NCBI RefSeq assembly: GCF_004122165.1
Contig: NZ_SBKO01000003.1
Span: 1 to 64,000 of the forward strand
From: Flavobacterium amnicola
GTDB taxonomy: Bacteria > Bacteroidota > Bacteroidia > Flavobacteriales > Flavobacteriaceae
Direction: 5' to 3'
DNA length: 64,000 nucleotides
The notes under the pieces are model-generated. The model worked only from the letters and a program-made list of their open reading frames with translations, did not search any database and was not told where the DNA came from. The first letter of the stretch is position 1, and every line of letters starts with the position of its first letter. Positions 1-12,407 of this stretch are shown here, in pieces. A program made the position numbers and the translations under genes.

Positions 1-83
1 TATTCATTCATTAATCCAGGATCGCATGAAGTAAATGCGAATGAAAAAAGTGTTAGAAATATAAGCACATAAATTTTATTCAT
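1..83 (-). CDS. Start of a lipoprotein gene, cut by the left edge (cassette 0)
   Basis: An ATG at 83-81 opens a minus-strand frame that stays open for 27 codons to the window edge. The peptide begins MNKIYVLIFLTLFSFAF and then TSCDPGLMNE, which is a positively charged start, a hydrophobic stretch and a cysteine, as in a lipoprotein signal peptide. It lies 38 bases from repeat 1, the same spacing seen for other cassette genes, so it is the first gene of the next cassette. The mature protein is outside the window, so its function cannot be judged. Confidence 0.6.
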   Translation of the reverse strand, partial: MNKIYVLIFLTLFSFAFTSCDPGLMNE

Positions 84-120
84 AGTGAGTTATAGATTTT
101 GTTAAGGTAAAATAGCGCAC

Positions 121-245
121 AACGTCCCGTGGCTTGGCTTGCAGTAGCGATGCCTGCGAACGTTTTATTTTCGGTTAAAGATAAACATTTTCGTAAAGAA
201 AATCATGAAGGAAAAATAAATTAGCTATTGCGCCAAACCACTGTT
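121..245 (-). repeat. attC-like repeat 1
   Basis: 125 bp from AAC (121) to GTT (245). The inner stem pairs GTGGCTTGGC with GCCAAACCAC. Compared with the common GCGGCTTGGC/GCCAAACCGC form, both sides have changed together (C to T, G to A), so pairing is kept. The core arms are unequal (GTCCC insert next to AAC on one side). The central part carries a weak TTTTCG/AAGAAAA hairpin. Confidence 0.85.
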
Positions 246-259
246 AGCAGAAGTAATAA

Positions 260-1066
260 CTACCAATTAAATAAATATTTCAAATAATTTTTATCATTCT
301 GAAAATCTTCAAAATTCTTTATGTTATCCATTGCATTATGTATTTGCTCAATATTATTTCCAAATTTATCATTCAAATATATTATTGGATAAATCTGAGA
401 ATCATATTTAATAAGTGAGTTATTCTGGGCGGAAATTCTTGCGAAAAAATGCATGAGATGATATAGTTGTGGCAACTGTCCATTTGCTGTTTCAACATCC
501 TGAATGAAGTTTTGGGTTGCGACAGGTAGGCTTAAATAACGTTCATTTTTTTCAAGTTCAGTTTGAATTCGATAGATTCCAGTTTTCTTTGCATTAAATT
601 CTGTCCATAAATAAAAATCAAAGTAGTAATTTTCATGTTTTGTATTACGACTCATTAAAACTGGATTGCCATAATGTGATATATAATCATTAAAATCTAC
701 AACATGAGTTAATTCATGAAAAATTGTACTAAAATATTGATATTCGTCAAAAGTTGATTTATTGATAATAATTCTAAACTCAATAGATTTTGAATCTAAA
801 GGAATACAAAAATGACCCATTGATTCTGATAAACCGTTAGCATCATAATGAGCTTTTTCTTCGTTGCAAGAATGTTTATATACAGCATTTTTATAATCAA
901 TAGGAATAATGATTTCAACTTTCTTGCCTCGAAGTTTATTTCTAACCTCAATGGTGAAAAATTCTTCTAGTAATGGGTTTATATATTGTTCGACATTCAA
1001 ATTAGTTTCATCACTTATTTTGATTTGAACTGATGGTATAAAAAGATTTTTGATTCTTTGAAACAT
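260..1066 (-). CDS. HExxH putative metallopeptidase-like protein (cassette 1)
   Basis: 268 residues with no signal peptide. The stretch HELTHVVDF places a zinc-type HExxH motif at residues 117-121. A Glu in WTEFNA near residue 156 is a reasonable third ligand, as in gluzincin folds. I do not recognise a named family, and both substrate and catalysis are unproven. It is the only gene between repeats 1 and 2. Its ATG (1066) lies 24 bases inside the cassette boundary, and this short leader has no recognisable TAnnTTTG promoter. Its stop lies 14 bases from the other boundary, so the cassette is almost all coding. A second HExxH protein occurs in cassette 10, but the two share only the motif. Confidence 0.75.
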   Translation of the reverse strand: MFQRIKNLFIPSVQIKISDETNLNVEQYINPLLEEFFTIEVRNKLRGKKVEIIIPIDYKNAVYKHSCNEEKAHYDANGLSESMGHFCIPLDSKSIEFRIIINKSTFDEYQYFSTIFHELTHVVDFNDYISHYGNPVLMSRNTKHENYYFDFYLWTEFNAKKTGIYRIQTELEKNERYLSLPVATQNFIQDVETANGQLPQLYHLMHFFARISAQNNSLIKYDSQIYPIIYLNDKFGNNIEQIHNAMDNIKNFEDFQNDKNYLKYLFNW

Positions 1067-1089
1067 CCTGATGATAAATTATTTCTGCT

Positions 1090-1215
1090 AACGTCCGGCG
1101 GCTTGGCGCAGTAGCGACTTCGTGGAACGATTATTTCTTGCTAAGATAAGATTTTCCAGCGGAAAATCGAACGTTGTTGTTTATTGATTTGTAGCTATTG
1201 TGCCAAACCGTTGTT
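1090..1215 (-). repeat. attC-like repeat 2
   Basis: 126 bp from AAC (1090) to GTT (1215). The inner stem is GCGGCTTGGC against GCCAAACCGT. The central hairpin is GATTTTCC-agc-GGAAAATC. The left flank (TTCTGCT) and right flank (ATAGGCA) do not pair with each other; each pairs with the far end of its own cassette. Confidence 0.88.
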
Positions 1216-1762
1216 ATAGGCAGTTTTTATTTTTGTCACGCATTGGTATCATATTCTTTTCATCAAGTGTAAAGCTATCATTTTCGAGATACAATTTTTG
1301 AAATGCTGACAAATCATCCGGATTTTCTTCAAGCATTTGATACATTTTTCTAAAAAAGTCTTCTCTACCAAATCCTGGATTGAAAATCATTTTCATTTTC
1401 ACAATTCCATCCGAATTATTGTTATAGCCGTGAACAGATAATCTTGGTATATGAATTACTGTTCCTGCTTCTGCCTGTACTTCTCCATTACCTGTTAGAA
1501 CCGTCAAGGTTCCTTCCTCGATTATAAATGTTTCGTCCATTTGTTTATGATAATGCAATTTCGGACCTCTCGCATTAGCTTCCATTTCAATTTCATATAG
1601 TCCAAATTGATTGTTCGTTAAAGTAGTAGGAATAATTATTTTGAGTTTATTTCCGTAGCATTGAAATTGCTCATTATTATGCAATGGAACGATGAAAGCG
1701 TCATCGTTCCATTCTTTTAAATTTAAATCTTTCATCGTGTTAATTTTGTGGAATTTCTTCAA
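1214..1762 (-). CDS. Cupin-domain protein (cassette 2, third gene)
   Basis: 182 residues with a single cupin barrel: GPKLHYHKQMDETF-type metal-binding motif 1 near residues 68-80 and a second conserved block with an H in HIPRLSVHGY near residue 106. Small cupins of this kind bind a metal and often isomerise or oxidise small molecules; the substrate is unknown. The ATG at 1762 overlaps the end of the DUF1398 gene by 23 bases. An ATG at 1735 (residue 10) would remove the overlap and is an equally good start. The stop codon TAA (1216-1214) is formed by the GTTA core of repeat 2, so the cassette boundary supplies the stop. It is the last gene of a three-gene cassette behind an AraC regulator. Confidence 0.8.
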   Translation of the reverse strand: MKKFHKINTMKDLNLKEWNDDAFIVPLHNNEQFQCYGNKLKIIIPTTLTNNQFGLYEIEMEANARGPKLHYHKQMDETFIIEEGTLTVLTGNGEVQAEAGTVIHIPRLSVHGYNNNSDGIVKMKMIFNPGFGREDFFRKMYQMLEENPDDLSAFQKLYLENDSFTLDEKNMIPMRDKNKNCL

Positions 1763-2639
1763 CTAAAATTTCGTTCCCTTCTTTATCGTAATAAGTACAA
1801 GTCATTTTATCCATACAAACATCCCATTTCTCAATACCAGTTTCAGCACACATTTTAATGAAAGTTAAAAAGTCCGTTTTGCCGTGTTGATGAGCCAATA
1901 ATTCAGCCTTAAATACTTCCATATTTGAATTCTCAGCAATTGTCATAGTTTCATATTTTGCAGGAACTTTTGCAACATAATTATTTTCTCCGTAATAATT
2001 AATATGACCATCATTTACATAGGTTTCATAATGAGTTACACCCATTGCTTTAATTTCTTTGATGTAAGATGGAAAGTCTGCACCTGATTTCACTTTACTG
2101 TGAGTTGCCATTAATTGTTCTGCTGTAAAAGTTGGTGTTTGAATGGAAGAATCGGGAATTTGTTCAATCCAAACTTTATTCCCTTCTTTATCAAAGTAAG
2201 TACAAGTCATAGTTATTAAACTTACCACCCATTTTTCAATTCCGTTGTCAGCACATTTACGGCTAATTTCAAAATAATTGGACTTACCTTGTTGATGGTT
2301 AGTAATATCCACTTTCAGTTGTTCCAAATTTACTATGTCGGCAACTGTCATTGGCTCATAGTTTGGTCCTGTCAAAAGTTCGAAACCATTTTCTCCGTGA
2401 TAAACATTTCGTCCATCTTTCATTTTGGTTTCATAATAAGTTACCCCGATATTTTTGAGGTTTATTGCCAAAAGAGGAAAGTCAGCTCCTGTTTTTACTT
2501 GCATCAATTTTTCTTTGATTTGATCTACTGTAAACATTTTTTCTTGATTTTTAATTGTTAAACAATTTGTTGAATTACATGCAATCATAATGCTCAAATT
2601 TGATAATATGATTGTCGATTTTAGAATTGGTTTTATCAT
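1740..2639 (-). CDS. Tandem DUF1398 protein, possible lipoprotein (cassette 2, second gene)
   Basis: 299 residues made of two similar copies of a DUF1398-type domain. Each begins FT(V/A)EQ with KxGADFP and holds a GVTxYET block, a pairing of C-x-x-x-GIEKW, a TCTY(F/Y)DKEGN block and a final EQIP/EEIP. The copies cover roughly residues 36-165 and 170-299. The first 34 residues (hydrophobic, then IACNST) look like a weak lipoprotein signal. DUF1398 proteins are usually about 130 residues with one domain, so this is a duplication in tandem. The function of the family is not established. It lies between the AraC gene (72 bases upstream) and the cupin gene, all in one cassette. Confidence 0.8.
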   Translation of the reverse strand: MIKPILKSTIILSNLSIMIACNSTNCLTIKNQEKMFTVDQIKEKLMQVKTGADFPLLAINLKNIGVTYYETKMKDGRNVYHGENGFELLTGPNYEPMTVADIVNLEQLKVDITNHQQGKSNYFEISRKCADNGIEKWVVSLITMTCTYFDKEGNKVWIEQIPDSSIQTPTFTAEQLMATHSKVKSGADFPSYIKEIKAMGVTHYETYVNDGHINYYGENNYVAKVPAKYETMTIAENSNMEVFKAELLAHQHGKTDFLTFIKMCAETGIEKWDVCMDKMTCTYYDKEGNEILVEEIPQN

Positions 2640-2711
2640 TTGTCTTTACATTAAGATTACTATGCAAAGATGCGATGATGAAAACCCCTGTAATTGTAAA
2701 AAATCGTTTTT

Positions 2712-3476
2712 CTACAAGAAGCGTTTGAAATTTTCGGGAGTGTCGCCCGTAAACTGTTTGAAGTCTTTAATAAAGTGGGCTTGGTCAAAGAAATTGTTTT
2801 CGTAGCAAATCTCAGTCAGCGTTTTTGTTTTGCTTAGATTGTCAAGAACGGTGTTGAAGCGAACAATGGAAGCAAATTTTTTGGCTGTTGTTCCAACCAC
2901 TTTTCTAAACCGCTTCTCGAATGGGCTTTGGCTAATAAAAAGTTTTTCGTTCAGTTCTTTTATACGGATTGTTCCATTACTTTGGTAAATAAGTTTAACC
3001 GCTTCAATTATTAATTTGTCTGTTTGAATATCTTTTAGCTGGGATACTAAAAACTGCTCTACAATTTTTATCCGAAGTTTGTCTGTTTTGGCAAATGCTA
3101 ATTTTTCTTCAACTTCTATTATGCTGTTTTTTTTAAAAATATCGTCAAGAGAAAGACTTAAATTGAACAATTCATTGGCAGGATGTGAAGCAAAATGAGT
3201 AAATCCAATTTCCGTAAAAAACACCAGAACAGTTCCTATATCGTTTGAATTTTTAAAAATCTTATAGCTGTCAGAAATCCCTGTAATTCCTGCTGATGTC
3301 AGTTTGCTTATTGTATTTTCTTTTACAGTTGCTAGTTGTCCTTTGTATTGAAAACCAATTACTAGTCCAGATGATGGGAAAACTTTATATTCATTTTCCA
3401 TAGCATTCTCTGACACTACAAAATATTTGATATAGGGTTTAAGTTGTTCAGTCGGAAAATATTTGTCAAATTTCAT
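2712..3476 (-). CDS. AraC-family transcriptional regulator (cassette 2, first gene)
   Basis: 254 residues. The C-terminal about 95 residues carry the two helix-turn-helix units of AraC proteins: IRIKELNEKLFISQSPFEKRF is the first region, and the second contains LTEICYENNFFDQAHFIKDF followed by FTGDTPENFKRF, the typical end of the domain. The N-terminal 150 residues resemble the ligand-sensing half found in Bacteroidota AraC regulators (FPSSGLVIGFQYKG). It is the promoter-proximal gene of the three-gene cassette, so it may control the DUF1398 and cupin genes; that is inferred from position only. A regulator carried inside a multi-gene cassette is unusual for integron cassettes. Confidence 0.88.
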   Translation of the reverse strand: MKFDKYFPTEQLKPYIKYFVVSENAMENEYKVFPSSGLVIGFQYKGQLATVKENTISKLTSAGITGISDSYKIFKNSNDIGTVLVFFTEIGFTHFASHPANELFNLSLSLDDIFKKNSIIEVEEKLAFAKTDKLRIKIVEQFLVSQLKDIQTDKLIIEAVKLIYQSNGTIRIKELNEKLFISQSPFEKRFRKVVGTTAKKFASIVRFNTVLDNLSKTKTLTEICYENNFFDQAHFIKDFKQFTGDTPENFKRFL

Positions 3477-3516
3477 CGTCTTGTCTGTTGGTACGGTGTT
3501 CCGTAAAATTGCCTAT

Positions 3517-3641
3517 AACGTCCCGCCGGCTTCACGAAGTGGCGAAGTTCGTGACTGATTTGTTTCTGCTAATATAAGATTTTCCAGCGGAAAATCGGCA
3601 ACCGGATTAAACAGCTCTCGCCATTTCGTGAAACCGCTGTT
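3517..3641 (-). repeat. attC-like repeat 3 (second stem subtype)
   Basis: 125 bp from AAC (3517) to GTT (3641). The inner stem differs from repeats 1 and 2: GGCTTCACGAAGTGGCG pairs with CGCCATTTCGTGAAACC. The central hairpin GATTTTCC/GGAAAATC is the same as in repeat 2. Shared only with repeats 4 and 10. Confidence 0.88.
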
Positions 3642-3669
3642 AGCAGAAGATTTATTCTTCCATTTCGTC

Positions 3670-3727
3670 TTCTTGTGGGAATATTTTTTCTTTTAAATTT
3701 CTTGTGGGAATATTTTTTCTTTTAAAT
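3670..3727 (-). repeat. 29-bp tandem duplication at the 3' end of a cassette gene
   Basis: Bases 3670-3698 and 3699-3727 are identical direct copies of a 29-bp unit. Since 29 is not a multiple of three, the second copy shifts the frame of the membrane-protein gene and gives an early stop (3695-3693). Removing one copy would restore a C-terminus ending PQEDEMEE with stop at 3654-3652. Confidence 0.9.
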
Positions 3728-4718
3728 ATATAATATACGGAAAAGTTAAGATTATAACCCAGATGGCTGTTTGTCTTGGAATTATTTGATATTTAAAATT
3801 TATGAAGTATAATGACGAACTATACAGTAGGCAAAATAAAGAATCAAGTTTCATTACCTGTTTGTCTGAATATCTCTCAATATGCGTTTTGGTCATAGTT
3901 TTAATGTCTTTTAGATGTTCTTTATCATAAAATCTATTTTTACTTGGTAAGTACTCTGCTAACATGAAAAAATTCTGTAAAATGTACATTGAGGATACCC
4001 CCAAAAGAAAGTATTGTAGAGTTATTATCGAACCATTTAAAATGTTAGTTTCTTCAATATTTGGACTGTCAAAAACTCTAAATATATGCTCAACGGCAAA
4101 AATTATCATTATTATTGAACTCCAAATGCTTAGGTAAAGCCTTGCATTTCTACTTAAAGTAATGTAGGTAAATGCGTGAATTAAAGAATATAATGAGATT
4201 AAGAATGATACTGATATTAATATCGATGAAAACAGATTTATGTTTTCAAAAAATTTATAGTCAAAAATCCAATATATTATCGAAATAGATTGTATTAATG
4301 TAATTCCTTCTGTTAGTTTTGGGACAACTTTCTTGTCATGAATTATTACTGAAATTAATACAAAAACTGCTAAAAAATAGAAAGGCCATGCTTCAATATG
4401 ATTTTCAAAATCGTAATTTCTTTCTCTTTTTCCAGGTAAAAACACTAAAAAACTAAAAATAAGTGAACCTAAAACTTTTAGAGCAATAATTTTCCAGTCA
4501 GTTGAAAGCCTTTTGTTTTCATATATTATTCCTAATAGCAATGGAATAAAACTTAAAGTAAATAATTTTCTATCGCTTATTTGAACTCTGTATATAATAT
4601 ATATCAAGAAGATTAAAAGCAAACCACCAATTAGATATAAATAAGTTGACCATTTTTTATAGAAAGGTAATTCTACTTTAATTGATTTCTTTTTGGTAAT
4701 CTTTTTTTTATTGGTCAT
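3693..4718 (-). CDS. Polytopic membrane protein of unknown function (cassette 3)
   Basis: 341 residues with a basic N-terminus (KKKITKKKS) and about nine hydrophobic segments spread along the chain, for example LYLIGGLLLIFLIYIIY and FPLLLG-type stretches, so it should sit in the inner membrane. I do not recognise a family. It is alone between repeats 3 and 4. The C-terminus now reads LKEKIFPQEI because of a 29-bp tandem duplication at 3670-3727. The unduplicated frame would end LKEKIFPQEDEMEE, so the effect is the loss or change of only about five residues and the protein may still work. The ATG lies 35 bases from the cassette boundary. Confidence 0.75.
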   Translation of the reverse strand: MTNKKKITKKKSIKVELPFYKKWSTYLYLIGGLLLIFLIYIIYRVQISDRKLFTLSFIPLLLGIIYENKRLSTDWKIIALKVLGSLIFSFLVFLPGKRERNYDFENHIEAWPFYFLAVFVLISVIIHDKKVVPKLTEGITLIQSISIIYWIFDYKFFENINLFSSILISVSFLISLYSLIHAFTYITLSRNARLYLSIWSSIIMIIFAVEHIFRVFDSPNIEETNILNGSIITLQYFLLGVSSMYILQNFFMLAEYLPSKNRFYDKEHLKDIKTMTKTHIERYSDKQVMKLDSLFCLLYSSSLYFINFKYQIIPRQTAIWVIILTFPYIIYLKEKIFPQEI

Positions 4719-4752
4719 TTTGTATTCGTCTCGTTTTTCAAAATTTTCTGCT

Positions 4753-4877
4753 AACGTCCTGCGGCTTCATGAAGTGGCGGAGTTCGTGATTTTTTTGTTT
4801 TCTGCTAATATAAGATTTTCCAGCGGAAAATCGGCAACCGACTTAAACAGCTACCGCTATTTCATGAAACCGCTGTT
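4753..4877 (-). repeat. attC-like repeat 4 (second stem subtype)
   Basis: 125 bp from AAC (4753) to GTT (4877). The stem GGCTTCATGAAGTGGCG pairs with CGCTATTTCATGAAACC. Compared with repeat 3, CACGAA has become CATGAA while the opposite arm changed from TTCGTG to TTCATG, a paired change that keeps the helix. Central hairpin GATTTTCC/GGAAAATC. Confidence 0.88.
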
Positions 4878-5703
4878 AGTAGCCGTTATTTATTTTGGAC
4901 TTATTATAATTTTCGATTTTGTCATAAATTCTTTTGCTTTTTTCTCTAGGATATTGAACAAGAGCTCTTTTATATTCCCACATGTTATTTTCACTCATAT
5001 ATTTTTCAAACATTTCTAAAAAAGCATCGTCAGGAAAAATTCTGATAGCAATGAAAGAATCTATTTCAAAACTTTTTATAAGATTTATATCTTGCTTTTT
5101 TTTGAATTTACTTAACGATTGAAGTAATTTTTTTGATTTAGTTTTTAATATGCTTTGTCTAATTTTTTGATAATATTCCTCAGAATTAGGTAACCATAAA
5201 TACATTTCATCTACTAAATCTTCATTTAGCTTATCTTGATTAAATATTATTTTAAAAAACTTTAGTTTGTTAATTTCTTTCTGTTCAGTTAGTTTCTTTT
5301 GGTCTGAAAAAATTGTTGAGTCAAAAATGTAAGCTGGTAATGAAATTTTGTCTTTTAAACATTCAGTTCTGAAAATAATACTATCTTTTGCGTTCAAGAG
5401 TTTTTCAAACAAATCAAACGCATAATCGTTGTCTTTATTAATTAGAGCATTTATAGCAACAGCTTTTATATATGGATTTTTATAATTATCAATTAATAAG
5501 TTAAGCTCATTTACAGTAGCTTTATTTTCCAATTCTTTAGTAATTGATTTTGGTAATGTATCTAACACATAAAATGCATTGTAATTTTTTAGTGGATCAA
5601 TAATTTTAATTGTCTTAGGGGAAATTTCATTTCTGCAACTGAATGCCATAAAAGAAATCAAAATTATTAAACATGTATTTATGAATTTTGATGCTAACAT
5701 CAT
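4876..5703 (-). CDS. Lipoprotein of unknown function (cassette 4)
   Basis: 275 residues. The N-terminus has a hydrophobic stretch ending FMAFSC, a lipobox, so a lipoprotein after about residue 22. The rest is Lys/Glu/Leu/Ile-rich and helical (for example LINKDNDYAFDLFEKLL), resembling HEAT-like or TPR-like helical hairpins, but I cannot assign a family. The stop TAA (4878-4876) is made by the core of repeat 4. The ATG lies 29 bases from the other boundary. Single gene in its cassette. Confidence 0.75.
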   Translation of the reverse strand: MMLASKFINTCLIILISFMAFSCRNEISPKTIKIIDPLKNYNAFYVLDTLPKSITKELENKATVNELNLLIDNYKNPYIKAVAINALINKDNDYAFDLFEKLLNAKDSIIFRTECLKDKISLPAYIFDSTIFSDQKKLTEQKEINKLKFFKIIFNQDKLNEDLVDEMYLWLPNSEEYYQKIRQSILKTKSKKLLQSLSKFKKKQDINLIKSFEIDSFIAIRIFPDDAFLEMFEKYMSENNMWEYKRALVQYPREKSKRIYDKIENYNKSKINNGY

Positions 5704-5731
5704 ATTACATTTCGGTTTTATAATGGCTACT

Positions 5732-5857
5732 AACGTCCCGTGGCTTGGCTTGCCGTTGTGGTTTCGTGATTAATTTGTTTTCCGCTAAGATAAGATTTTC
5801 CTGCGGAAAATCAGCACCTGGTTAAACTGCAACCCGCAATGGCGCCAAACCACTGTT
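5732..5857 (-). repeat. attC-like repeat 5
   Basis: 126 bp from AAC (5732) to GTT (5857). The inner stem is GTGGCTTGGC/GCCAAACCAC, the same compensated pair as repeat 1, then TTGCCGTTGTGG faces ACCCGCAATGGCG. The central hairpin is GATTTTCC-tgc-GGAAAATC. Confidence 0.88.
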
Positions 5858-5871
5858 AGCTGTCGTGTATT

Positions 5872-6396
5872 TTAATATTCATTATTGTAACTGTAACAGT
5901 CTAAATTGACAGATGAATGTATTAGTTTCATTTCTTTTGAGATTACAAAAATATGGGTGGATGTGAGACATTTTTCAAAGTAAAGTTTCTCAATTTCTGC
6001 ATATTTTTTTTCGTTAAGAAGTGTGATTCTTTTTTTATAATCGTATAAATCAACTTCGAATTTATTGTAAGATTTTAAAAAATCATCTTTTTCAAAACCA
6101 ATAACTTTTCCGTCAATAATTAAGTATATAGAATAATTATAACCCCAATCATAATTATAACTTTCTATCACATAAAATTCATTACTTTTTGTTTTTTTAA
6201 TATTTTCTAATTGAGAATTTATGATTTTAGTTCTAAGTTTTGAATTTCTTGATTTGAAAATTGATTGTTGATTTTCAGGACATGGAAATACTGTTTTTTC
6301 CAGTGTTTCAATTTCTTTACTTAAGCCCGCAATATATTTTTGTTCTGCACACGAGAACATAAGAATTATAGGAAATATGAAAATGAATTTTTTCAA
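5872..6396 (-). CDS. Small lipoprotein of unknown function (cassette 5)
   Basis: 174 residues. The signal region KKFIFIFPIILMFSC ends in a lipobox cysteine at about residue 16. The start codon at 6396-6394 is TTG. No ATG lies upstream in frame close by, and the signal peptide begins exactly here, so the TTG start looks real. The mature part is rich in Lys, Tyr and Glu with no family I know. Single gene between repeats 5 and 6. Confidence 0.7.
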   Translation of the reverse strand: MKKFIFIFPIILMFSCAEQKYIAGLSKEIETLEKTVFPCPENQQSIFKSRNSKLRTKIINSQLENIKKTKSNEFYVIESYNYDWGYNYSIYLIIDGKVIGFEKDDFLKSYNKFEVDLYDYKKRITLLNEKKYAEIEKLYFEKCLTSTHIFVISKEMKLIHSSVNLDCYSYNNEY

Positions 6397-6437
6397 TTTA
6401 GACTTTACTTTGTTGTTTCGGTTTTTACATGACAGCT

Positions 6438-6562
6438 AACGTCCTGCGGCTTGGCTTGCCGTTGCGGCAATTTACGAAAAATTTTCTTGCGTGAGAAAAG
6501 ATTTGAGGAAACCGTCAGGTTTCCGACGGACGGGTTACTAGCAATGGCGCCAAACCGCTGTT
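6438..6562 (-). repeat. attC-like repeat 6
   Basis: 125 bp from AAC (6438) to GTT (6562). The stem GCGGCTTGGC pairs with GCCAAACCGC and extends through TTGCCGTTGC against GCAATGGC. The central part (GGCAATTTACGAAAAATTTTC and then GGAAACCGTCAGGTTTCC) is nearly the same as in repeat 11 and unlike the others. Confidence 0.88.
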
Positions 6563-6575
6563 AGTGGCAGTACTT

Positions 6576-7160
6576 TTATTCAATTAGCCTTTGAAGAGTT
6601 CTAGATAATTCCCATTTATTTTCTTTGTTGAGCTTATATATGAATATTCCACTTTCATCATTAATTCCACATTCAATAATTGCAGTATTTTTTTTAAGGT
6701 TAAATAGAGGAATATAAAAATATCCAATACAATTATTTTCTAAACTTATTTTTTTCCAATACTTATCTCTTTGCTCTTTTGAATTTACTGTCGAATCAAG
6801 TTCTATAATTTTTTTACTCTTGATGAACTTTTGATTTAAAACGAATCTATTTCCATTTCGAAACTGTTTTAGAATGAATTTTTTATCACTTTCTGTAAAA
6901 AGACTGTCAATTTCTTCTAGTAGTAATTCATCACCATTTTTGATTATAAAAGTCTTTCTATCCATTATAGCTCCACAATCTTTGTAGAGTTTATTTTCTG
7001 AAAGTACTTGGTTAATCAACTCATAAATAAGTTTGTTGTCAATTATTTCCGTGTACTTTTGGTCAGTTATAATTTCTGAATTTTTTTTCTCAGTATTGTT
7101 ATTTTTCTTACAACCAAAAAGAAAAAAAAGTGAAATTATTATAATATGATATTTTTTCAT
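6576..7160 (-). CDS. Lipoprotein of unknown function (cassette 6)
   Basis: 194 residues. The signal peptide KKYHIIIISLFFLFGC gives a lipobox cysteine near residue 17, followed by a Lys/Asn-rich linker (KKNNNTEKKN). The mature domain has mixed strand/helix character, with CGAIMDRKTF, a short block NNCIGYFYIPLFN and a C-terminal ECGINDESGIF block. No family recognised. ATG 24 bases inside the cassette boundary; single gene between repeats 6 and 7. Confidence 0.75.
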   Translation of the reverse strand: MKKYHIIIISLFFLFGCKKNNNTEKKNSEIITDQKYTEIIDNKLIYELINQVLSENKLYKDCGAIMDRKTFIIKNGDELLLEEIDSLFTESDKKFILKQFRNGNRFVLNQKFIKSKKIIELDSTVNSKEQRDKYWKKISLENNCIGYFYIPLFNLKKNTAIIECGINDESGIFIYKLNKENKWELSRTLQRLIE

Positions 7161-7183
7161 CGTGAAGTTTTAGTATTGCCACT

Positions 7184-7308
7184 AACGTCCGGCGGCTTGG
7201 CGTAGTAGCGAAGCCAGCGAACTGATTATTTTCTGTTAAAGATAAAATTTTTTCGTGAAGAAGAACTTGAAGTTAAAATTAATCTAGTTATTACGCCAAA
7301 CCGCTGTT
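7184..7308 (-). repeat. attC-like repeat 7
   Basis: 125 bp from AAC (7184) to GTT (7308). The stem GCGGCTTGGCGTAGTAGCG faces AGTTATTACGCCAAACCGC. GGCGTA/TACGCC pairs here where repeats 2 and 8 have GGCGCA, another paired change. Central region like repeat 1. Confidence 0.86.
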
Positions 7309-7747
7309 ACTGGCTGGCGTTATATTTTTCTTTTTCTTTACTTTTCAATTTTAGGTATTCTTTTCTTAAGTATTCGTTACAGTCTTGAACTAGTACTTTT
7401 CCATTTTTCAAGTAATAATATGCAGTATCTTTTCCTCTTTCTTTATAAACAGAATCGCCAACATTTATTTGATAATAAATACTGTTTGGAATTTGAACTT
7501 CATTGTAGTCATTCAAAATCATAAACCTTGAAGCTCTAGGATAATCTCCATCTTCTTTCTTGTCAGTTATTTTTCCGTTGAATTCTGTTTCTTTGCTTTC
7601 CAAATATTTTTCTCTTTTGTAGTCTAAAGAGTTGTTTTGGTATGTAAATATAATTGCAATGAATAAAGCGATTGGAATAAAAACATAAGCTAAGTTTCTT
7701 CTAATCTCAGATTCTTGTTTTTCTAATTCTTGCTCAGATTTATTCAT
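7307..7747 (-). CDS. Small membrane-anchored protein of unknown function (cassette 7)
   Basis: 146 residues with one membrane span (about residues 20-40, LAYVFIPIALFIAIIF) near the N-terminus, then a soluble domain with YPRASRFMILNDY and QINVGDSVYKERGKD. That last block resembles small exported domains of Bacteroidota, but I cannot name it. The C-terminus is highly charged. The stop TAA (7309-7307) is supplied by the core of repeat 7. Single gene in its cassette. Confidence 0.72.
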   Translation of the reverse strand: MNKSEQELEKQESEIRRNLAYVFIPIALFIAIIFTYQNNSLDYKREKYLESKETEFNGKITDKKEDGDYPRASRFMILNDYNEVQIPNSIYYQINVGDSVYKERGKDTAYYYLKNGKVLVQDCNEYLRKEYLKLKSKEKEKYNASQ

Positions 7748-7784
7748 ACTTTTTATTTTACCGTAAATTTCTACGCTTGCCAGT

Positions 7785-7912
7785 AACGTTCCGCGGCTTG
7801 GCGCAGTAGCGACTGCGTGGAATGATTTATTTTCTTGCTAAGATAAGATTTTCAGCGGAAAATCGAATGTTGCTGTTAAAGCTAAAAGTAGCTATTGAGC
7901 CAAACCGCTGTT
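7785..7912 (-). repeat. attC-like repeat 8
   Basis: 128 bp from AAC (7785) to GTT (7912). The stem is GCGGCTTGGCGCAGTAGCG against GCTATTGAGCCAAACCGC. The centre has GATTTTCAGCGGAAAATC. Confidence 0.86.
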
Positions 7913-7922
7913 ATGGGCTGGT

Positions 7923-8624
7923 TTAATTGTAAACTCGCTCTTTTCCAAGCATATCATTTATATTTTTAGAATGCTGAAGTATAACTTCGTTGTTTTCACC
8001 ATTTTTTACAGCTTGCTCTAATAAATTTACTATTTCTCTTTTATTAGAATAATTTGCCAGAATACTTTCAGAGAGAATTTTTTCTACGACTTCTAATACT
8101 CTTCCAGATTTGACTACGAAAGTATTGTTAGGAACAAAATTAATTTCTTTAAGACTACAGTTTCCATAAAAAACTATAATTGAATAAAAAGGAATATTTT
8201 CGAACTGTTTAAGTTGTTTTTTTAAATCATCAATATGTTTAGCATTTTGTAAAATTGGATTATAAAAATAATATTTATCTCTTCCGTAGTTTAAAATTTG
8301 TGCCCATTGAGGTTTATATCCAGTTCCAAAAATCCAACCACTATAATCTTTTACTTCAAATACTAGAATGCCTACTTTAGTTGGAACAACTAAATCGATT
8401 TGCGAATACTTTCCATAATATTTTTTTAAGTATAAATCATGAAAAATTGTTTGAGATGGAATTCCATATTGTGAAAGTTTTGATACCAAAGCTCTTTCAG
8501 ATACTGTTCCTCTTTTCGGACCTAAATCTGTTTCGAATTGGTTAATTTCGAGATTGTCTTTATCCTTTTTAAATGTGTAATAGAGAATAAATAAGACAAT
8601 TGATATAATAATAACATACAACAT
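7923..8624 (-). CDS. NERD-domain (nuclease-related) membrane-anchored protein (cassette 8)
   Basis: 233 residues. One membrane span (about residues 2-18) precedes a NERD domain at roughly residues 38-150. Visible motifs are an early Glu (SERALVSKL), then D77 in QIDLVV and E90-V-K92 in FEVKDYSGW, the D...ExK pattern of restriction-endonuclease-like folds. NERD proteins are thought to act on nucleic acids, and some take part in DNA handling or defence; the target here is unknown. Single gene between repeats 8 and 9. A membrane-bound nuclease-like protein among cassettes of unknown function fits a cargo role such as defence, which is inference. Confidence 0.82.
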   Translation of the reverse strand: MLYVIIISIVLFILYYTFKKDKDNLEINQFETDLGPKRGTVSERALVSKLSQYGIPSQTIFHDLYLKKYYGKYSQIDLVVPTKVGILVFEVKDYSGWIFGTGYKPQWAQILNYGRDKYYFYNPILQNAKHIDDLKKQLKQFENIPFYSIIVFYGNCSLKEINFVPNNTFVVKSGRVLEVVEKILSESILANYSNKREIVNLLEQAVKNGENNEVILQHSKNINDMLGKERVYN

Positions 8625-8670
8625 AAAGAATAAGGTTCAATTGATTGTGATTTTTCTAAAACTTGCCCAT

Positions 8671-8800
8671 AACGTTCTGCGGCTTGCTCTCAGTGGCGTT
8701 GCACCAACACCAAGCCATTACAAATATAACAAAACATTCCATTCAGCAGCGGATTTTCCGTAGGAAAATCCGGAAGTAGCCATTGAAGCAAACCGCTGTT
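8671..8800 (-). repeat. attC-like repeat 9 (most divergent)
   Basis: 130 bp from AAC (8671) to GTT (8800). The stem GCGGCTTGCTCTCAGTGGCG faces GCCATTGAAGCAAACCGC. TTGC/GCAA replaces TTGGC/GCCAA on both sides. The centre lacks the usual AGATAAG motif and has GGATTTTCCG-taGGAAAATCC. Confidence 0.82.
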
Positions 8801-8811
8801 GTGCGTTCGGT

Positions 8812-9417
8812 TTATTCATTACATCCAATTTTCGGCAAACAGAGTATAGGAGCAAGACCACCAGAAATTAGTATTCCGATTTTTGTTTTTTCAATTTCAA
8901 AAAAGAGAGTGTTATTTTCAATATAGTTTGGTAAATTTTCAGGCATTCCCATGTCATAAACCATGATGTTATTTTTACTGTCAATAAATGCTATTTCACT
9001 TCTTCCTCGAGGTGATAACATTTCGCCAATTCCAATTATCTTGAAATTTGTAATAACTTTATAAGAGTTTTCATTATCAATATCTTTTAATTCGCCCAAA
9101 TATTTTATTTCAGTTTTCGTATGTTTCTCATCAATTATTTGTAGTTGATTAATTTCACTTGATTTAATGAACTTTTTATAGAAATGTAGTTTGTCTTTAC
9201 TTTCATTAATTTTCTTATCTAATGAGTTACCTTTCATAAATTCAGTAAAGACTAAAGTATCGTAAATAATAGATGAATTTTTTTCAGAATCATTTCTCAA
9301 AATTGTTTTAACTTTTTTTTGAATTTTTTTTTCAGAACTGCCATTTTTTGGTTTGTCAATTTTTGAGTTACAGCTAAAAAAGACAATTGAAACAATTAAA
9401 ATATAGAGTCTATTCAT
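8812..9417 (-). CDS. Lipoprotein of unknown function (cassette 9)
   Basis: 201 residues. Signal peptide MNRLYILIVSIVFFSC with lipobox cysteine at residue 16 and a Lys/Ser-rich linker. A beta-rich mature domain contains ISPRGRSEIAF-like and MVYDMGMPENLPNYI stretches and ends CLPKIGCNE. I do not recognise a family. Stop is 12 bases from repeat 9; the ATG is 47 bases from the other boundary. Single gene in its cassette. Confidence 0.75.
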   Translation of the reverse strand: MNRLYILIVSIVFFSCNSKIDKPKNGSSEKKIQKKVKTILRNDSEKNSSIIYDTLVFTEFMKGNSLDKKINESKDKLHFYKKFIKSSEINQLQIIDEKHTKTEIKYLGELKDIDNENSYKVITNFKIIGIGEMLSPRGRSEIAFIDSKNNIMVYDMGMPENLPNYIENNTLFFEIEKTKIGILISGGLAPILCLPKIGCNE

Positions 9418-9463
9418 TTTTTATTTTCTAAGTTTTTTTACACGGTATTCAAAACTGACGCAC

Positions 9464-9588
9464 AACGTCCCGCCGGCTTCACGAAGTGGCGAACCTCGGG
9501 ACGAAATATTTTCCACTAAGATAAAATTTAATAGCGAAATATAAATATGAATTTAGCAATATTCTCGCCATTTCGTGAAACCGCTGTT
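9464..9588 (-). repeat. attC-like repeat 10 (second stem subtype)
   Basis: 125 bp from AAC (9464) to GTT (9588). The inner stem GGCTTCACGAAGTGGCG/CGCCATTTCGTGAAACC is identical to repeat 3, but the centre is different (no GATTTTCC hairpin; AT-rich). So stem and centre vary independently. Confidence 0.87.
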
Positions 9589-9599
9589 AGCAGCCGTAT

Positions 9600-10340
9600 T
9601 TATTCATTATTTGTTTGTAGATATTCGATATTTTGAGTGAAAAATTTAGCCATACCATTATTTAAGTATTTTTCATATTCAGTTGATTCGTTTCTGTGAA
9701 TGCTTAACCAAGCCATTGCATAAGCGATTACTTGTTCAGGTAAATATCCTTGACTACTCATTTGCCATCCTGAATGAGAAATGTTTTGAAATTTGGAATG
9801 TTGAAATCTTGAGTTACCTAGAAATATTCCAAAGCCATATGTTAAAGCTGTTAAATCGGTTAAATATTCATCATTTTCTTCGATTCTGTTTTCCCCAAGC
9901 AAAATGAAGTGTGATAATTCATGAGCAATTGTAGCAATTAGGGAAAAAGTATTTTTTAATTGCCCTTTTTCAATGTAGATAATTTTTTCATTTTCAAGTT
10001 CTTTATAAACACCAGTTGCACTTTGCCATTTCCCATTAATATCAGCTGGACTAGATAGAATTGTTCCATCAGCCATTTCAATAGGTTGATCAGAAAAGTA
10101 TTCAATACGGATGTTAGAATCTTCTATTTGCATTAACTCTTTTGTCCTTTCTAGGACGAATTCAGCATCTTCTTCATTACCTTTAAAAGTCCAATTGTAA
10201 TAATTTTTAGTTGGAGTAATGGTTCTTAAGCTATCGAAGTGTTCATTCCCTAAAATTTCACGAAGGAAAATAAAACTTTCCTCGATCCATTTTTTGTCAT
10301 CTTCTGTAACAGATGGTTTTTTCTTTTTATTCCAAAACAT
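9600..10340 (-). CDS. HExxH domain protein, putative metallopeptidase (cassette 10)
   Basis: 246 residues with no signal peptide. HELSH at residues 140-144 (in IATIAHELSHFILL) is a zinc HExxH motif. An acidic stretch RIEENDEYLTDLTALTYGFG follows about 10 residues later; it could give the third ligand and resembles small cytoplasmic HExxH proteins of Bacteroidota. The first half has a beta-rich segment ending at IIYIEKGQLKN. Catalysis is not proven. The gene is alone between repeats 10 and 11, with the ATG about 37 bases from the boundary. Confidence 0.78.
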   Translation of the reverse strand: MFWNKKKKPSVTEDDKKWIEESFIFLREILGNEHFDSLRTITPTKNYYNWTFKGNEEDAEFVLERTKELMQIEDSNIRIEYFSDQPIEMADGTILSSPADINGKWQSATGVYKELENEKIIYIEKGQLKNTFSLIATIAHELSHFILLGENRIEENDEYLTDLTALTYGFGIFLGNSRFQHSKFQNISHSGWQMSSQGYLPEQVIAYAMAWLSIHRNESTEYEKYLNNGMAKFFTQNIEYLQTNNE

Positions 10341-10374
10341 ATTGAATTCCAGAGGTTTTTTTAATATGGCTGCT

Positions 10375-10497
10375 AACGTCCGGCGGCTTGGCGCCGTTGC
10401 GGCAATTTACGAAAAATTTTCTTCGTGGGGAAGGGTTTGAGGAAACCGTTAGGTTTCCGACGGAAGATTTAACTAGCTATGGCGCCAAACCGCTGTT
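10375..10497 (-). repeat. attC-like repeat 11 (nearest the integrase)
   Basis: 123 bp from AAC (10375) to GTT (10497). The stem GCGGCTTGGCGCCGTTGCGG faces AGCTATGGCGCCAAACCGC. The centre is close to that of repeat 6 (GGAAACCGTTAGGTTTCC). This repeat ends the cassette adjoining the attI-like site, so by integron logic it is the youngest. Confidence 0.88.
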
Positions 10498-10520
10498 AAC
10501 GGCTGGTTTTATAATTTAAT

Positions 10521-11057
10521 TCATCTGCCAATTTCTTTCCATTTGTCTTTTGTAAAGAATACATTTCCAAATTTGGAAGAATGAAACACATAGTAAAATG
10601 TTTTTCCTTTTCTATATAAAGTTGGATTTTCATTTACGATATGATGTTTTGAATTTTCAAAATTTAAAACAATTCGTGGAACTTGATATTGTTCTAAAAA
10701 ATGAATTTTTCCTTTGTAAGTTTTTGTAATTTTAGCTTTCTCGGTTACATGAAATAGAATTTCATCATTTTGGTTAATTTCAAATCGAAAATGTTCATAT
10801 TGCCAATCGGATTGTTTCCCAGAATATTTAGTTCTGTCAATAACATATTCTCCATAAATATCATCTCTATCCAATTCGCTTGAACTTACGAGTAAATTTA
10901 TTATTGATACTAATAAAACTAATCCAATAACTGCAATCCAAATTCCACTAAGAGCTTTACCAAATATTTTTTTCCTTGAAACACCCCAAGAAATTAATAA
11001 TATTATTGATAGAGGAATTAATATAAGTATGAAAAAAAGGTTGAATCCAAATCCCAT
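10521..11057 (-). CDS. Two-span membrane protein of unknown function (cassette 11, first after the integrase)
   Basis: 178 residues. Two hydrophobic spans (about residues 5-24 and 38-57: FFILILIPLSIILLISW and GIWIAVIGLVLLVSIINLL) are followed by a soluble domain of strands with charged turns (DIYGEYVIDRTKY, HFRFEINQNDEILFHV) that would lie on one side of the inner membrane. No family recognised. By integron logic this is the most recently inserted cassette. Its ATG lies 47 bases from the attI-like junction and no clear promoter lies between. Confidence 0.72.
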   Translation of the reverse strand: MGFGFNLFFILILIPLSIILLISWGVSRKKIFGKALSGIWIAVIGLVLLVSIINLLVSSSELDRDDIYGEYVIDRTKYSGKQSDWQYEHFRFEINQNDEILFHVTEKAKITKTYKGKIHFLEQYQVPRIVLNFENSKHHIVNENPTLYRKGKTFYYVFHSSKFGNVFFTKDKWKEIGR

Positions 11058-11093
11058 TCGATTGTTGTTTTATGCGAAATTTTTTTGGCAAAC

Positions 11094-11125
11094 TTGCCGT
11101 TAACTCTTAAATAGCTGTACCTGAA
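11094..11125 (-). other. attI-like recombination site at the head of the array
   Basis: GCCGTTAAC at 11096-11104 is the exact complement of the GTTAACGGC that lies at the far end of the same cassette (10495-10503). No palindromic repeat follows it; beyond it comes unique sequence up to the integrase gene. This is where an integron would have attI: the G side belongs to the platform and TTAACGGC to the first cassette. The extent of the site on the integrase side is a guess. Confidence 0.7.
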
Positions 11126-11170
11126 AATTCCGGCATTTCTATCTAAAGTCTATTTTTAAAGGGTTTATAA

Positions 11171-11212
11171 AAAACAATTCAAAAAAATGTATTGCGTAAT
11201 TCGAATTGTTTT
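11171..11212 (-). terminator. Possible terminator between integrase and first cassette
   Basis: AAAACAATTC (11171-11180) and GAATTGTTTT (11203-11212) form an inverted repeat with T-runs outside both arms and a 22-base loop. The stem is AT-rich, so it may be weak. On the minus strand it would end integrase transcripts before the cassettes. Confidence 0.45.
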
Positions 11213-11248
11213 TTTTCTGAATTCTTGATTTCAAATATAGCGTATTTT

Positions 11249-12319
11249 TCATAAAAAATCTAAGGGACTCACAATTTTGCGCAAGGTTCTATCGGTTACA
11301 TTGGTGTATAATAATGTGGTGCTAATGCTATTGTGACCCAATAATTCTTGAATGAAACGTATATCGGTTCCGTTTTCTAATAAATGGGTGGCATAACTGT
11401 GACGCAAACTGTGGATACCTACTTTTTTTCTTATTTGTGCTTCATGCAATGCATCTTTAAATACTTTTTGTAACGATCGACTAGAGTATTGTCCACCGTA
11501 CTGTCCTTCAAAGAGGTATTCTTTTGGTTTATAAGATAAATAGTATTCCCGCAATTGAAATAAAATACTGTCGGGTAAATTAACATAACGATCTTTTTTT
11601 CCTTTACCACGCTCTACATACACCAACATCGTTCGACTGTCAATATCCGAAATTTTAAGATTTATAATTTCAGACAATCGCAAACCCATTCCGTAACACA
11701 ATTTGAGCATTGTATTGTGTTTTAGGTTTTTTGAAGCCATAAAAATACGTCTCACTTCGTCCGAATTTAATGCTTTGGGCAACTTAAGTTGCTTTTTCGG
11801 TCGCGGAATTTCAACAAAAATTCGAGGCTGAAACAACACTTGTTCATAATAAAATTTGATTCCGCTAATCCTACTGTGTAAAGTGTTTTCTTTTAATTTT
11901 AATTCGGTGATGCAATGCAATAAAAACTCGCGGACTTCCACTTCATTGCAGGTGTTTGATGCTTTGTCTTTGATAAAATATAAAAATTGGGCAAATTCCT
12001 GACTATAACATCGAATGGTACTTGGACTATACCCTTTTAATCGGAGTTGATTTACCAATCGCTCTAATTCCTTCTGATTGTGGGGATTGATTTTGGAAAG
12101 TGTTTTGGTGCCAATAGTATAATCGGTTAAAAGATTAAACTTTTTTCGGTATTCAATAACATCTGGAACATACCAGCACTGATTAGTTTGACTCCAAGAG
12201 GAACCTACTAATTTTTTAACTTCTGAAAGATGAACAGGATTTTTGTCAAATCGAATGAAAATGACTTTCTGATTACGGTGTTCCCCTAATGTAAAGGTGT
12301 ATGGCGTCAAACTAATCAT
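11249..12319 (-). CDS. Tyrosine recombinase of the cassette array (Xer-like, not IntI)
   Basis: 356 residues. Residues 1-65 form an extra N-terminal module; about 80-175 is the SAM-like core-binding domain; about 180-356 is the catalytic domain. Active-site residues visible are R214 (GLRLSEI), K near 239 (RGKGKKDRY), H303 and R306 (HSLRHSYATH), H329 (LLGHNS) and Y338 (LLYTNV). The end SPLDFL resembles the SPLD ends of IntI proteins. R214 to H303 is 89 residues; XerD has 96 and IntI1 131, so the IntI-specific extra helix has no room. It reads toward the cassettes from the attI-like site and is the obvious candidate to move them. A Xer-family origin is inferred; activity is untested. Confidence 0.88.
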   Translation of the reverse strand: MISLTPYTFTLGEHRNQKVIFIRFDKNPVHLSEVKKLVGSSWSQTNQCWYVPDVIEYRKKFNLLTDYTIGTKTLSKINPHNQKELERLVNQLRLKGYSPSTIRCYSQEFAQFLYFIKDKASNTCNEVEVREFLLHCITELKLKENTLHSRISGIKFYYEQVLFQPRIFVEIPRPKKQLKLPKALNSDEVRRIFMASKNLKHNTMLKLCYGMGLRLSEIINLKISDIDSRTMLVYVERGKGKKDRYVNLPDSILFQLREYYLSYKPKEYLFEGQYGGQYSSRSLQKVFKDALHEAQIRKKVGIHSLRHSYATHLLENGTDIRFIQELLGHNSISTTLLYTNVTDRTLRKIVSPLDFL

Positions 12320-12337
12320 AATGGCTTATATATATAA

Positions 12338-12345
12338 CAAATATA
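12338..12345 (-). promoter_or_regulatory. Candidate -7 element of the integrase promoter
   Basis: The minus strand reads TATATTTG here, matching the Bacteroidota TAnnTTTG -7 element about 19 bases before the integrase ATG. I see no good TTTG at the -33 distance, so support is partial. Confidence 0.35.
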
Positions 12346-12407
12346 GCTATAAGTTTTTTATAATTAGATAGGAGTGAATTGAAAAATTGTGAAAATTAGA
12401 CTGAAAC

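Follow-up and report, generated by a model that had tools for sequence, protein, structure and literature searches.

The left end of a 64,000-nt stretch of Flavobacterium amnicola DNA (positions 1-64,000 of contig NZ_SBKO01000003.1, assembly GCF_004122165.1; hereafter the window) carries an array of genes separated by palindromic sites and headed by a gene for a tyrosine recombinase (table 1). The sites number 11, span 125-132 bp from TAAC to GTTA, lie at 120-10498, and share a single orientation. Thirteen complete genes between the sites, a fourteenth cut by the left edge of the window, which is the end of the contig (C28), and the recombinase gene are all on the minus strand. A first-pass annotation had described eleven palindromic repeats in one orientation, 14 genes (one cut) reading one way, and a tyrosine recombinase and an attI-like half site at their head; all of these elements are borne out, the repeats by a covariance model. 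Run over the whole 64-kb window at E ≤0.1, the model returns only the 11 sites and weak reverse-strand echoes of their own palindromes. We read the stretch as the leading end of a chromosomal integron, sedentary in type and belonging to a Bacteroidota lineage, with a probability of roughly 0.87. The reading draws on G|TT boundaries, pairing of ends within cassettes, the conserved attI of relatives, the link between sites and recombinase, and the sharing of cassettes between genera, all of which stand in the sequences themselves and indicate that this is an integron by mechanism, belonging to a deeply diverged lineage. A deeply diverged cassette-capture system was among the possibilities raised at the outset, and the tests favor it.

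The array outruns the edge of the window. Across the whole genome, covariance model R1, built from the 11 sites of the window, finds 31 sites (11 on contig C28, seven on C29, and 13 on C32) and one reverse-strand echo. The 127 bases at the free end of C28 recur as the last of C32, and a single 127-base sequence opens both C32 and C29, which fits a continuation of the array. The simplest path would lead from the recombinase through C28, a stretch X-Y, and C32 and then, by a second copy of that stretch, to C29, with the presence of the stretch deduced from this path. The equal 127-base contig ends at sites show that such arrays break assemblies. One cassette pair is present twice within C32.

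In the direction of the genes, every one of the 11 cassettes in the window opens with GTT followed by variable bases and closes in its own site. Reverse-complementing the inner arm of that site gives the first six variable bases in 11 of 11 cassettes (66 of 66 letters), compared with 37.1 letters on average and at most 60 of 66 in 100,000 permutations. The two arms of one physical repeat, taken as a control, do not match in this manner. Cassette 1 makes its end match with the attI junction at 11096-11104. A match of each cassette to its own end is the trace expected from circular cassettes joined at G|TT. Given the 31 genome-wide sites and the agreement of cassette ends relative to permutations, the set of sites is not due to chance. 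The earlier claim that core boxes depart from the classical consensus needs dividing, as the classical G|TT is kept and the bases that follow it are hypervariable and paired within each cassette.

Relatives of the locus are the best 80 of 185 from a scan of contigs with the window recombinase, and they are not 80 independent cases as some are near-copies (e.g. L029/L030, L090/L092). Model R1 alone overlooked divergent sites; model R2, built from 111 R1 matches in these recombinase-chosen loci, gives 201 matches at E ≤0.01 when run over 97 sources. Site counts based on R2 elsewhere lean on the recombinase-chosen training set, whereas the side and orientation of sites do not. At least one site is present in 42 of 80 loci and at least two in 29, and 153 of 155 site matches keep one fixed side and strand per locus, with two located elsewhere. 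The matches are downstream of and codirectional with the recombinase in 30 loci (120 matches), upstream and divergent in 12 loci (33 matches), and no locus has both arrangements.

Cassettes at the same locus differ between relatives, which the first-pass annotation had proposed as a check: three pairs of loci change at the same attI rather than holding static copies. Loci L029 and L030 have at most three mismatches over the 2278 bases back from the recombinase stop, are identical for 245 bases onward, and diverge right after GAGTTAGC. Leaders of L074/L076 and L084/L086 are 98.1% and 100% identical, respectively, and are followed by different cassettes from G|TT. In four further pairs of loci, leaders are too diverged for this comparison. 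Flavobacterium enshiense and Flavobacterium sp. SM15 have a common block of 1547 bp that is 95.9% identical (L021:15188-16733, L026:19407-20950). The L021 copy of the block contains a MerTP mercury transport gene, and parts of the block match Moheibacter (84%) and an Ignavibacteria genome (78%).

The pairing of cassette ends extends to a set of 127 cassettes that are bounded by two detected sites and come from 33 sources, including the window; 14 site matches without a clear AAC/GTT were removed before the test. The own-end match is 6/6 in 109 of 127 cassettes, 5/6 in 11, and lower in seven, and when identical pairs are counted once, 105 of 122 are at 6/6. In loci with at least three testable cassettes, 574 of 606 letters agree, relative to 337 on average and at most 384 across 2000 within-locus shuffles. 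Across the 127 cassettes, identity of paired ends is 0.91-0.96 at positions 1-6, 0.63 at position 7, 0.02 at position 8, 0.74-0.88 at positions 9-12, and 0.07 at position 13. In the 120 cassettes with at least 5/6, the pairing comprises GTT and seven bases, a never-paired position 8, and four more pairs. Position 8 is an A on the start side in 120 of 120 and a G.T in the bottom strand in 102 of 120, and positions 2-4 show all four pair types. Predicted folding with DNA parameters yields a more stable bottom than top strand for 114 of 120 sites in circle form, and the energy of the circle form is below that of the integrated form in 118 of 120; in the integrated form, the bottom strand is favored in 89 of 120. 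The predicted energies fit a folded bottom strand. In a Vibrio integron used as a control, own-end pairing occurs in four of six pairs taken from a crude pattern, and the other two may have an undetected site in between.

A single attI motif serves codirectional and divergent layouts alike. The motif (ATTGCGTATATTTATGAG|TT) was built from 17 loci. With the 99% shuffle threshold as cut-off, 32 of 81 loci have it on the downstream side of the recombinase, half of them (16) being loci that trained it, and 13 of 81 have it upstream. None of the 13 upstream sites were used for training, though the downstream site of L032 was, and two of the 13 are open to doubt, that of L032 because it is without the G and a strong downstream site is present as well, and that of L095 because it is without GTT. 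The family attI (…GCGTATATTTATGAG|TT) is at the head of the array in both gene layouts. In the window, attI keeps only TATTTAAGAG|TT and is under the threshold, and its junction with cassette 1 still fits. The sequence TAnnTTTG, which we take to be the Bacteroidota -7-type consensus and on that basis read TATATTTG as a -7 box, is at most 45 nt from the recombinase stop in 25 of 81 loci, compared with 2% of shuffles.

Table 1. Features of the cassette array in the window, from the recombinase to the contig end.
Feature	Position	Strand	Remark
Tyrosine recombinase, 356 aa	11249-12319	-	Outside the IntI clade; without the IntI additional domain; extra N-terminal ~80 residues
Candidate cassette promoter box TATATTTG	11232-11239	-	Bacteroidota -7-type, just past the recombinase stop
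Leader inverted repeat AACAATTC...GAATTGTT	11173-11210	-	By eye; contains ACGCAAT element, also in relatives' leaders
attI-like half site	11096-11104	-	GCCGTTAAC
attI remnant and junction with cassette 1	11096-11122	-	Minus strand CAGCTATTTAAGAG|TTAACGGC; degenerate relative to the family attI motif
Cassette gene, 178 aa	10521-11057	-	No Pfam match
attC-like site of cassette 1	10374-10498	-	Covariance model
Cassette gene, 246 aa	9600-10340	-	No Pfam match
attC-like site	9463-9589	-	Covariance model
Cassette gene, 201 aa	8812-9417	-	No Pfam match
attC-like site	8670-8801	-	Covariance model
Cassette gene, 233 aa	7923-8624	-	NERD nuclease-related domain (Pfam)
attC-like site	7784-7913	-	Covariance model
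Cassette gene, 146 aa	7307-7747	-	No Pfam match over cut-off
attC-like site	7183-7309	-	Covariance model
Cassette gene, 194 aa	6576-7160	-	No Pfam match over cut-off
attC-like site	6437-6563	-	Covariance model
Cassette gene, 174 aa	5872-6396	-	TTG start as listed; no Pfam match
attC-like site	5731-5858	-	Covariance model
Cassette gene, 275 aa	4876-5703	-	No Pfam match
attC-like site	4752-4878	-	Covariance model
Cassette gene, 341 aa	3693-4718	-	No Pfam match
attC-like site	3516-3642	-	Covariance model
Three-gene cassette	1214-3476	-	AraC-type regulator 2712-3476; DUF1398 protein 1740-2639 (two matched stretches); cupin 1214-1732
attC-like site	1089-1216	-	Covariance model
Cassette gene, 268 aa	260-1066	-	No Pfam match
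attC-like site	120-246	-	Covariance model; array continues past site on other contigs
Cassette gene start, cut by contig end	1-83	-	By eye; contig overlap with C32

The recombinase has the catalytic residues R214, K239, H303, R306, H329, and Y338, which are identified by position, with roles assigned accordingly, and are invariant or nearly so in 43 relatives. It scores 199.9 bits against the NCBIfam integron integrase family TIGR02249, in two stretches, and does not reach the cut-off of 265. Its score against NF040815 is 214.7 bits (cut-off 220); this family was dropped as a discriminator because it also takes in housekeeping Xer proteins and is thus uninformative on integron membership. Of 85 family proteins measured, 84 have 91-94 residues between catalytic box I and HxxRH; this spacing is 133-134 in 23 of 23 measured IntI, 94 in XerC, and 98 in XerD; the pattern could not measure 10 of 95 family rows and nine of 32 IntI rows. 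By this measure, the window recombinase lacks the IntI-specific additional domain (∼42 residues, near patch III). A protein encoded at L078:4797-6056 has a spacing of 129, which implies additional residues close to where IntI has its domain, and its locus is without site matches. One study terms the IntI domain defining (PMC9668308).

In a quick tree of 95 proteins that includes 16 IntI and 13 Xer rows and few other recombinases, the IntI rows form one group (support 100) that does not contain the family, the Xer rows form another (100), and the family has SH-aLRT 81. The window recombinase is not in the Xer clade, as the 13 Xer rows split off with support 100. When the root is assumed to be at Xer, the family and the IntI clade are sisters. 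Among the 42 rows of known layout, the tree requires two changes between codirectional and divergent arrangements. Of the solved structures, the Vibrio integron recombinase 2a3v is nearest in sequence, with the match split in two where 2a3v has extra residues. The predicted structure (pLDDT 83.6, pTM 0.60) likewise has 2a3v as best Foldseek match. VIA-align places XerA first (Z 24.0, root-mean-square deviation 15.0) and 2a3v second (Z 22.5, root-mean-square deviation 3.1). Judged by domain content and by clade and cut-off, the two features that define IntI, the protein is not of the IntI family in the strict sense. The initial description of the recombinase as not IntI-like is therefore right as to clade and insert and overstated as to distance, given a sister position to IntI under the Xer root and 2a3v as the closest structure. 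Residues 1-80, with a WSxxxxxWYVPD motif, are common to many members of the family, and others align only from about residue 85.

Sites and recombinase co-occur across genomes, as the first-pass annotation had proposed to check. In a genus sample of 121 genomes (recombinase E ≤1e-50, at most 29 candidates scored per genome), sites are present in 102 and the recombinase in 62. Ten or more sites are found in 40 of 62 genomes with the recombinase and 12 of 59 without (p 1.2e-6; medians of 15.5 and 2). In a class sample of 149 genomes (recombinase E ≤1e-45), 113 have sites and 84 have the recombinase; 78 have both, six only the recombinase, 35 only sites, and 30 neither (p 4.7e-8). The covariance search recommended at the outset has extended the array within its own genome and recovered sites in loci of relatives and in genomes of the class, and such arrays, which the annotation did not regard as typical of Bacteroidota, are typical of the class. 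Classical IntI is over the cut-off in 107 of 392 phylum genomes. The phylum genomes with any IntI match number 115, and a single one of those over the cut-off (G075) is labelled as belonging to the same class, a figure given without the share of that class among the 392. Applied to six of these classical-IntI genomes and to a Vibrio integron replicon, model R2, which does find sites in the genus and class samples, has 0 matches, an empty result that proves little alone.

If the integron reading is correct, a gene and its ∼125-bp site would form a circle, and the bottom strand of the site would fold into a hairpin. The recombinase, through Tyr338, would cut between G and TT and exchange the site with attI; as attI lies a short way downstream of the recombinase gene, each new cassette would be placed beside that gene. 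Excision between sites would release circles. A promoter located where the recombinase gene ends probably drives the cassettes. We infer the use of the strand, catalysis by the window recombinase, and the promoter from the features described.

Other explanations can be weighed against an integron of this lineage. Real integron sites could have been made by another recombinase, such as XerC/D or a classical IntI that is encoded elsewhere or was once present, leaving a passive array like a CALIN with the neighboring recombinase as a bystander. The class genomes with sites and no detected recombinase, and the frequency of classical IntI in the other classes of the phylum (the 107 of 392 over the cut-off), could be taken as signs of such an origin. 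We nevertheless consider it very improbable, because sites are on one defined side in 42 of 80 loci that were chosen by recombinase alone, attI adjoins the recombinase in both layouts, the site model finds nothing in the classical-IntI genomes and the Vibrio replicon, and a single same-class genome is over the cut-off among those with IntI matches. The array itself differs from a CALIN, defined as an array without an integrase, in having a recombinase at its head and an attI junction between the two. Dispersal of palindromic repeats or of a miniature transposon, amplified between genes without cassette recombination, would likewise yield palindromic, scattered sites with similar copies. In that case, the end signature should not follow the cassette rather than the repeat, as it does in the control rows, nor should identical cassettes in two genera stop at the crossover to the base or near-identical loci switch at G|TT, and we give dispersal next to no credence.

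Independent invention, in which a Xer-type recombinase converged on cassette capture with no integron ancestor in common, is harder to dismiss and still unlikely. The absence of the IntI domain, the separate clade, the lack of matches of the site model in classical-IntI genomes, and the 15-base paired ends with their fixed odd position are all compatible with it, and non-integron recombinases that possibly fall between the two clades are hardly sampled. Shared ancestry is instead suggested by crossover at G|TT and own-end pairing also in the Vibrio control, the same set of int-attI-attC parts, a Vibrio integron recombinase as the nearest solved structure by both sequence and Foldseek, and the separation of Xer rows from IntI plus the family at support 100. 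Like XerC, XerD, and archaeal XerA, the window recombinase has the catalytic core and a similar spacing without the IntI insert, and its NF040815 score is just below the cut-off. It differs from them in its clade and in standing at a cassette array with an attI junction, and the F. amnicola genome has other genes that are XerC/D-like.

Several observations count against the integron reading or temper it. Eighteen of 127 cassettes are below 6/6 (11 at 5/6 and seven worse), in addition to the 14 unclear matches dropped beforehand. In the class sample, 35 of 149 genomes have sites without a detected recombinase and six have the reverse, and 12 of 59 genus genomes without the recombinase still have at least ten sites. 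The co-occurrence p-values are too small since loci and genomes are related and kinship was ignored. Of the 80 loci, 38 have no site match; 14 of these end <600 bp downstream of the recombinase and 24 do not. L020 and L023, which have close recombinases, are without site matches or attI and look like losses. The family as a single clade depends on SH-aLRT 81 in a quick tree, and a sister relationship to IntI depends on placing the root at the 13 Xer rows. This dependence, together with the use of some attI loci in training the motif, slightly reduces confidence in the integron reading. The copy in the window may also be weak, as its own attI is degenerate and below the threshold.

Relative to classical sedentary integrons such as those of Vibrio, the array is alike in its int, attI, cassettes, and G|TT crossover, in the complementarity of cassette ends, as in the four control pairs, and in its length and mostly unknown genes. 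Divergent integrases are usual in classical integrons. The window recombinase is instead codirectional with and upstream of its cassettes, as in 30 of 42 family loci, with the other 12 being divergent. Its position outside the IntI clade and lack of the IntI insert are further differences, as are the family attI motif and the absence of site-model matches in the Vibrio replicon. Paired ends in the family reach 15 bases with a fixed odd position 8, which is unseen in the six Vibrio pairs.

Integrons are known as vehicles of resistance genes, and arrays of the present type also carry one. A 1331-bp block, running from G|TT to the end of a site, is 100% identical in Chryseobacterium lacus (L047:2687-4017, minus strand) and Moheibacter lacus (L062:8499-9829, minus strand), with no further identical base on either flank. 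It is directly at attI in L062 and within the array in L047. The cassette encodes Tet(X) (NF033111, 861.7 bits, cut-off 750), which inactivates tetracycline and tigecycline; 18 bp precede the start codon and ∼146 bp follow the stop. A Myroides odoratimimus plasmid (L182:9001-10331) has the entire cassette at 100% identity, annotated there as tet(X2), and a Bacteroides fragilis plasmid (L183:6001-7331) has it at 99.7%; model R2 detects its site on both. By these boundaries, tet(X2) is an intact cassette of the type in the window. It matches 294 plasmid records, and among the matches listed, Acinetobacter tet(X3) covers 1-1258 of 1331, with the start of the cassette intact and its site cut short at the end, and tet(X4) covers 35-1207 of 1331. 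On the M. odoratimimus plasmid, attC-like sites at 2039-2164, 5381-5506, and 8817-9004 are directly before aadS, near catB, and before tet(X2), respectively, and tyrosine recombinase genes are in the same region.

Papers record a gene named xerD beside tet(X) (PMC7473080, PMC7494873). The protein (TnpF) encoded next to tet(X3) on Acinetobacter plasmids is 49.6% identical to the window recombinase over residues 125-356, and tet(X3) follows it codirectionally and keeps the cassette start GTTATGTGCC. It differs from the window system in having a shorter gene (2967-3632 in L111) and in that the last part of the tet(X3) site is gone. A paper on tet(X14) describes no adjacent integron and raises a role of XerD in moving tet(X) as a question (PMC7473080), and another terms the transfer mechanism poorly understood (PMC7494873). 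The link between tet(X) and this array type makes that published question testable. For Riemerella anatipestifer, a 2026 report describes uptake of aph(3')-IVb with flanks of 27 bp (5') and 140 bp (3'), which inserts independently of homology and whose 140-bp flank folds like attC, with the recombinase not identified by its authors (PMC13148043). Set beside the 18 and ∼146 bp of tet(X2), these flank sizes fit a cassette of the kind in the window.

We think it likely that a second integron lineage, perhaps as old as IntI, spans the class Bacteroidia and recombines folded attC without the IntI domain that is regarded as required for this. Such a lineage would be the platform to which tet(X), and probably further Bacteroidota resistance genes, are native; in naturally competent members, single strands taken up from outside may act directly as the folded substrate. 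A related clade without the IntI domain bears on the origins of integrons. Bacteroidota are listed among phyla with integrons in two reviews (PMC8618304, PMC9668308), and the IntegronFinder 2.0 survey names one complete case, Salinibacter (PMC9024848). Apart from the attC-like fold in Riemerella, a search of the open-licence literature, with preprints and closed journals outside it, brought up no mention of this lineage, which has apparently been overlooked so far. With sites in three-quarters of the sampled Bacteroidia genomes (113 of 149), programs that look for the IntI domain and for classical sites may overlook a large platform for gene sharing.

The contents of the cassettes in the window are mostly without recognizable domains, as nine of 13 complete cassette proteins have no Pfam match over the cut-off. 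A PADLOC search of ten cassette proteins for defense functions gave weak matches only, all to the NERD protein, and an Rfam search of positions 1-12400 at E ≤1 found nothing. On a Chryseobacterium plasmid (L110:14411-22129), an array of the same type includes, between its sites, the reverse transcriptase of a group II intron and an IS110; in classical integrons, too, group II introns occur in attC.

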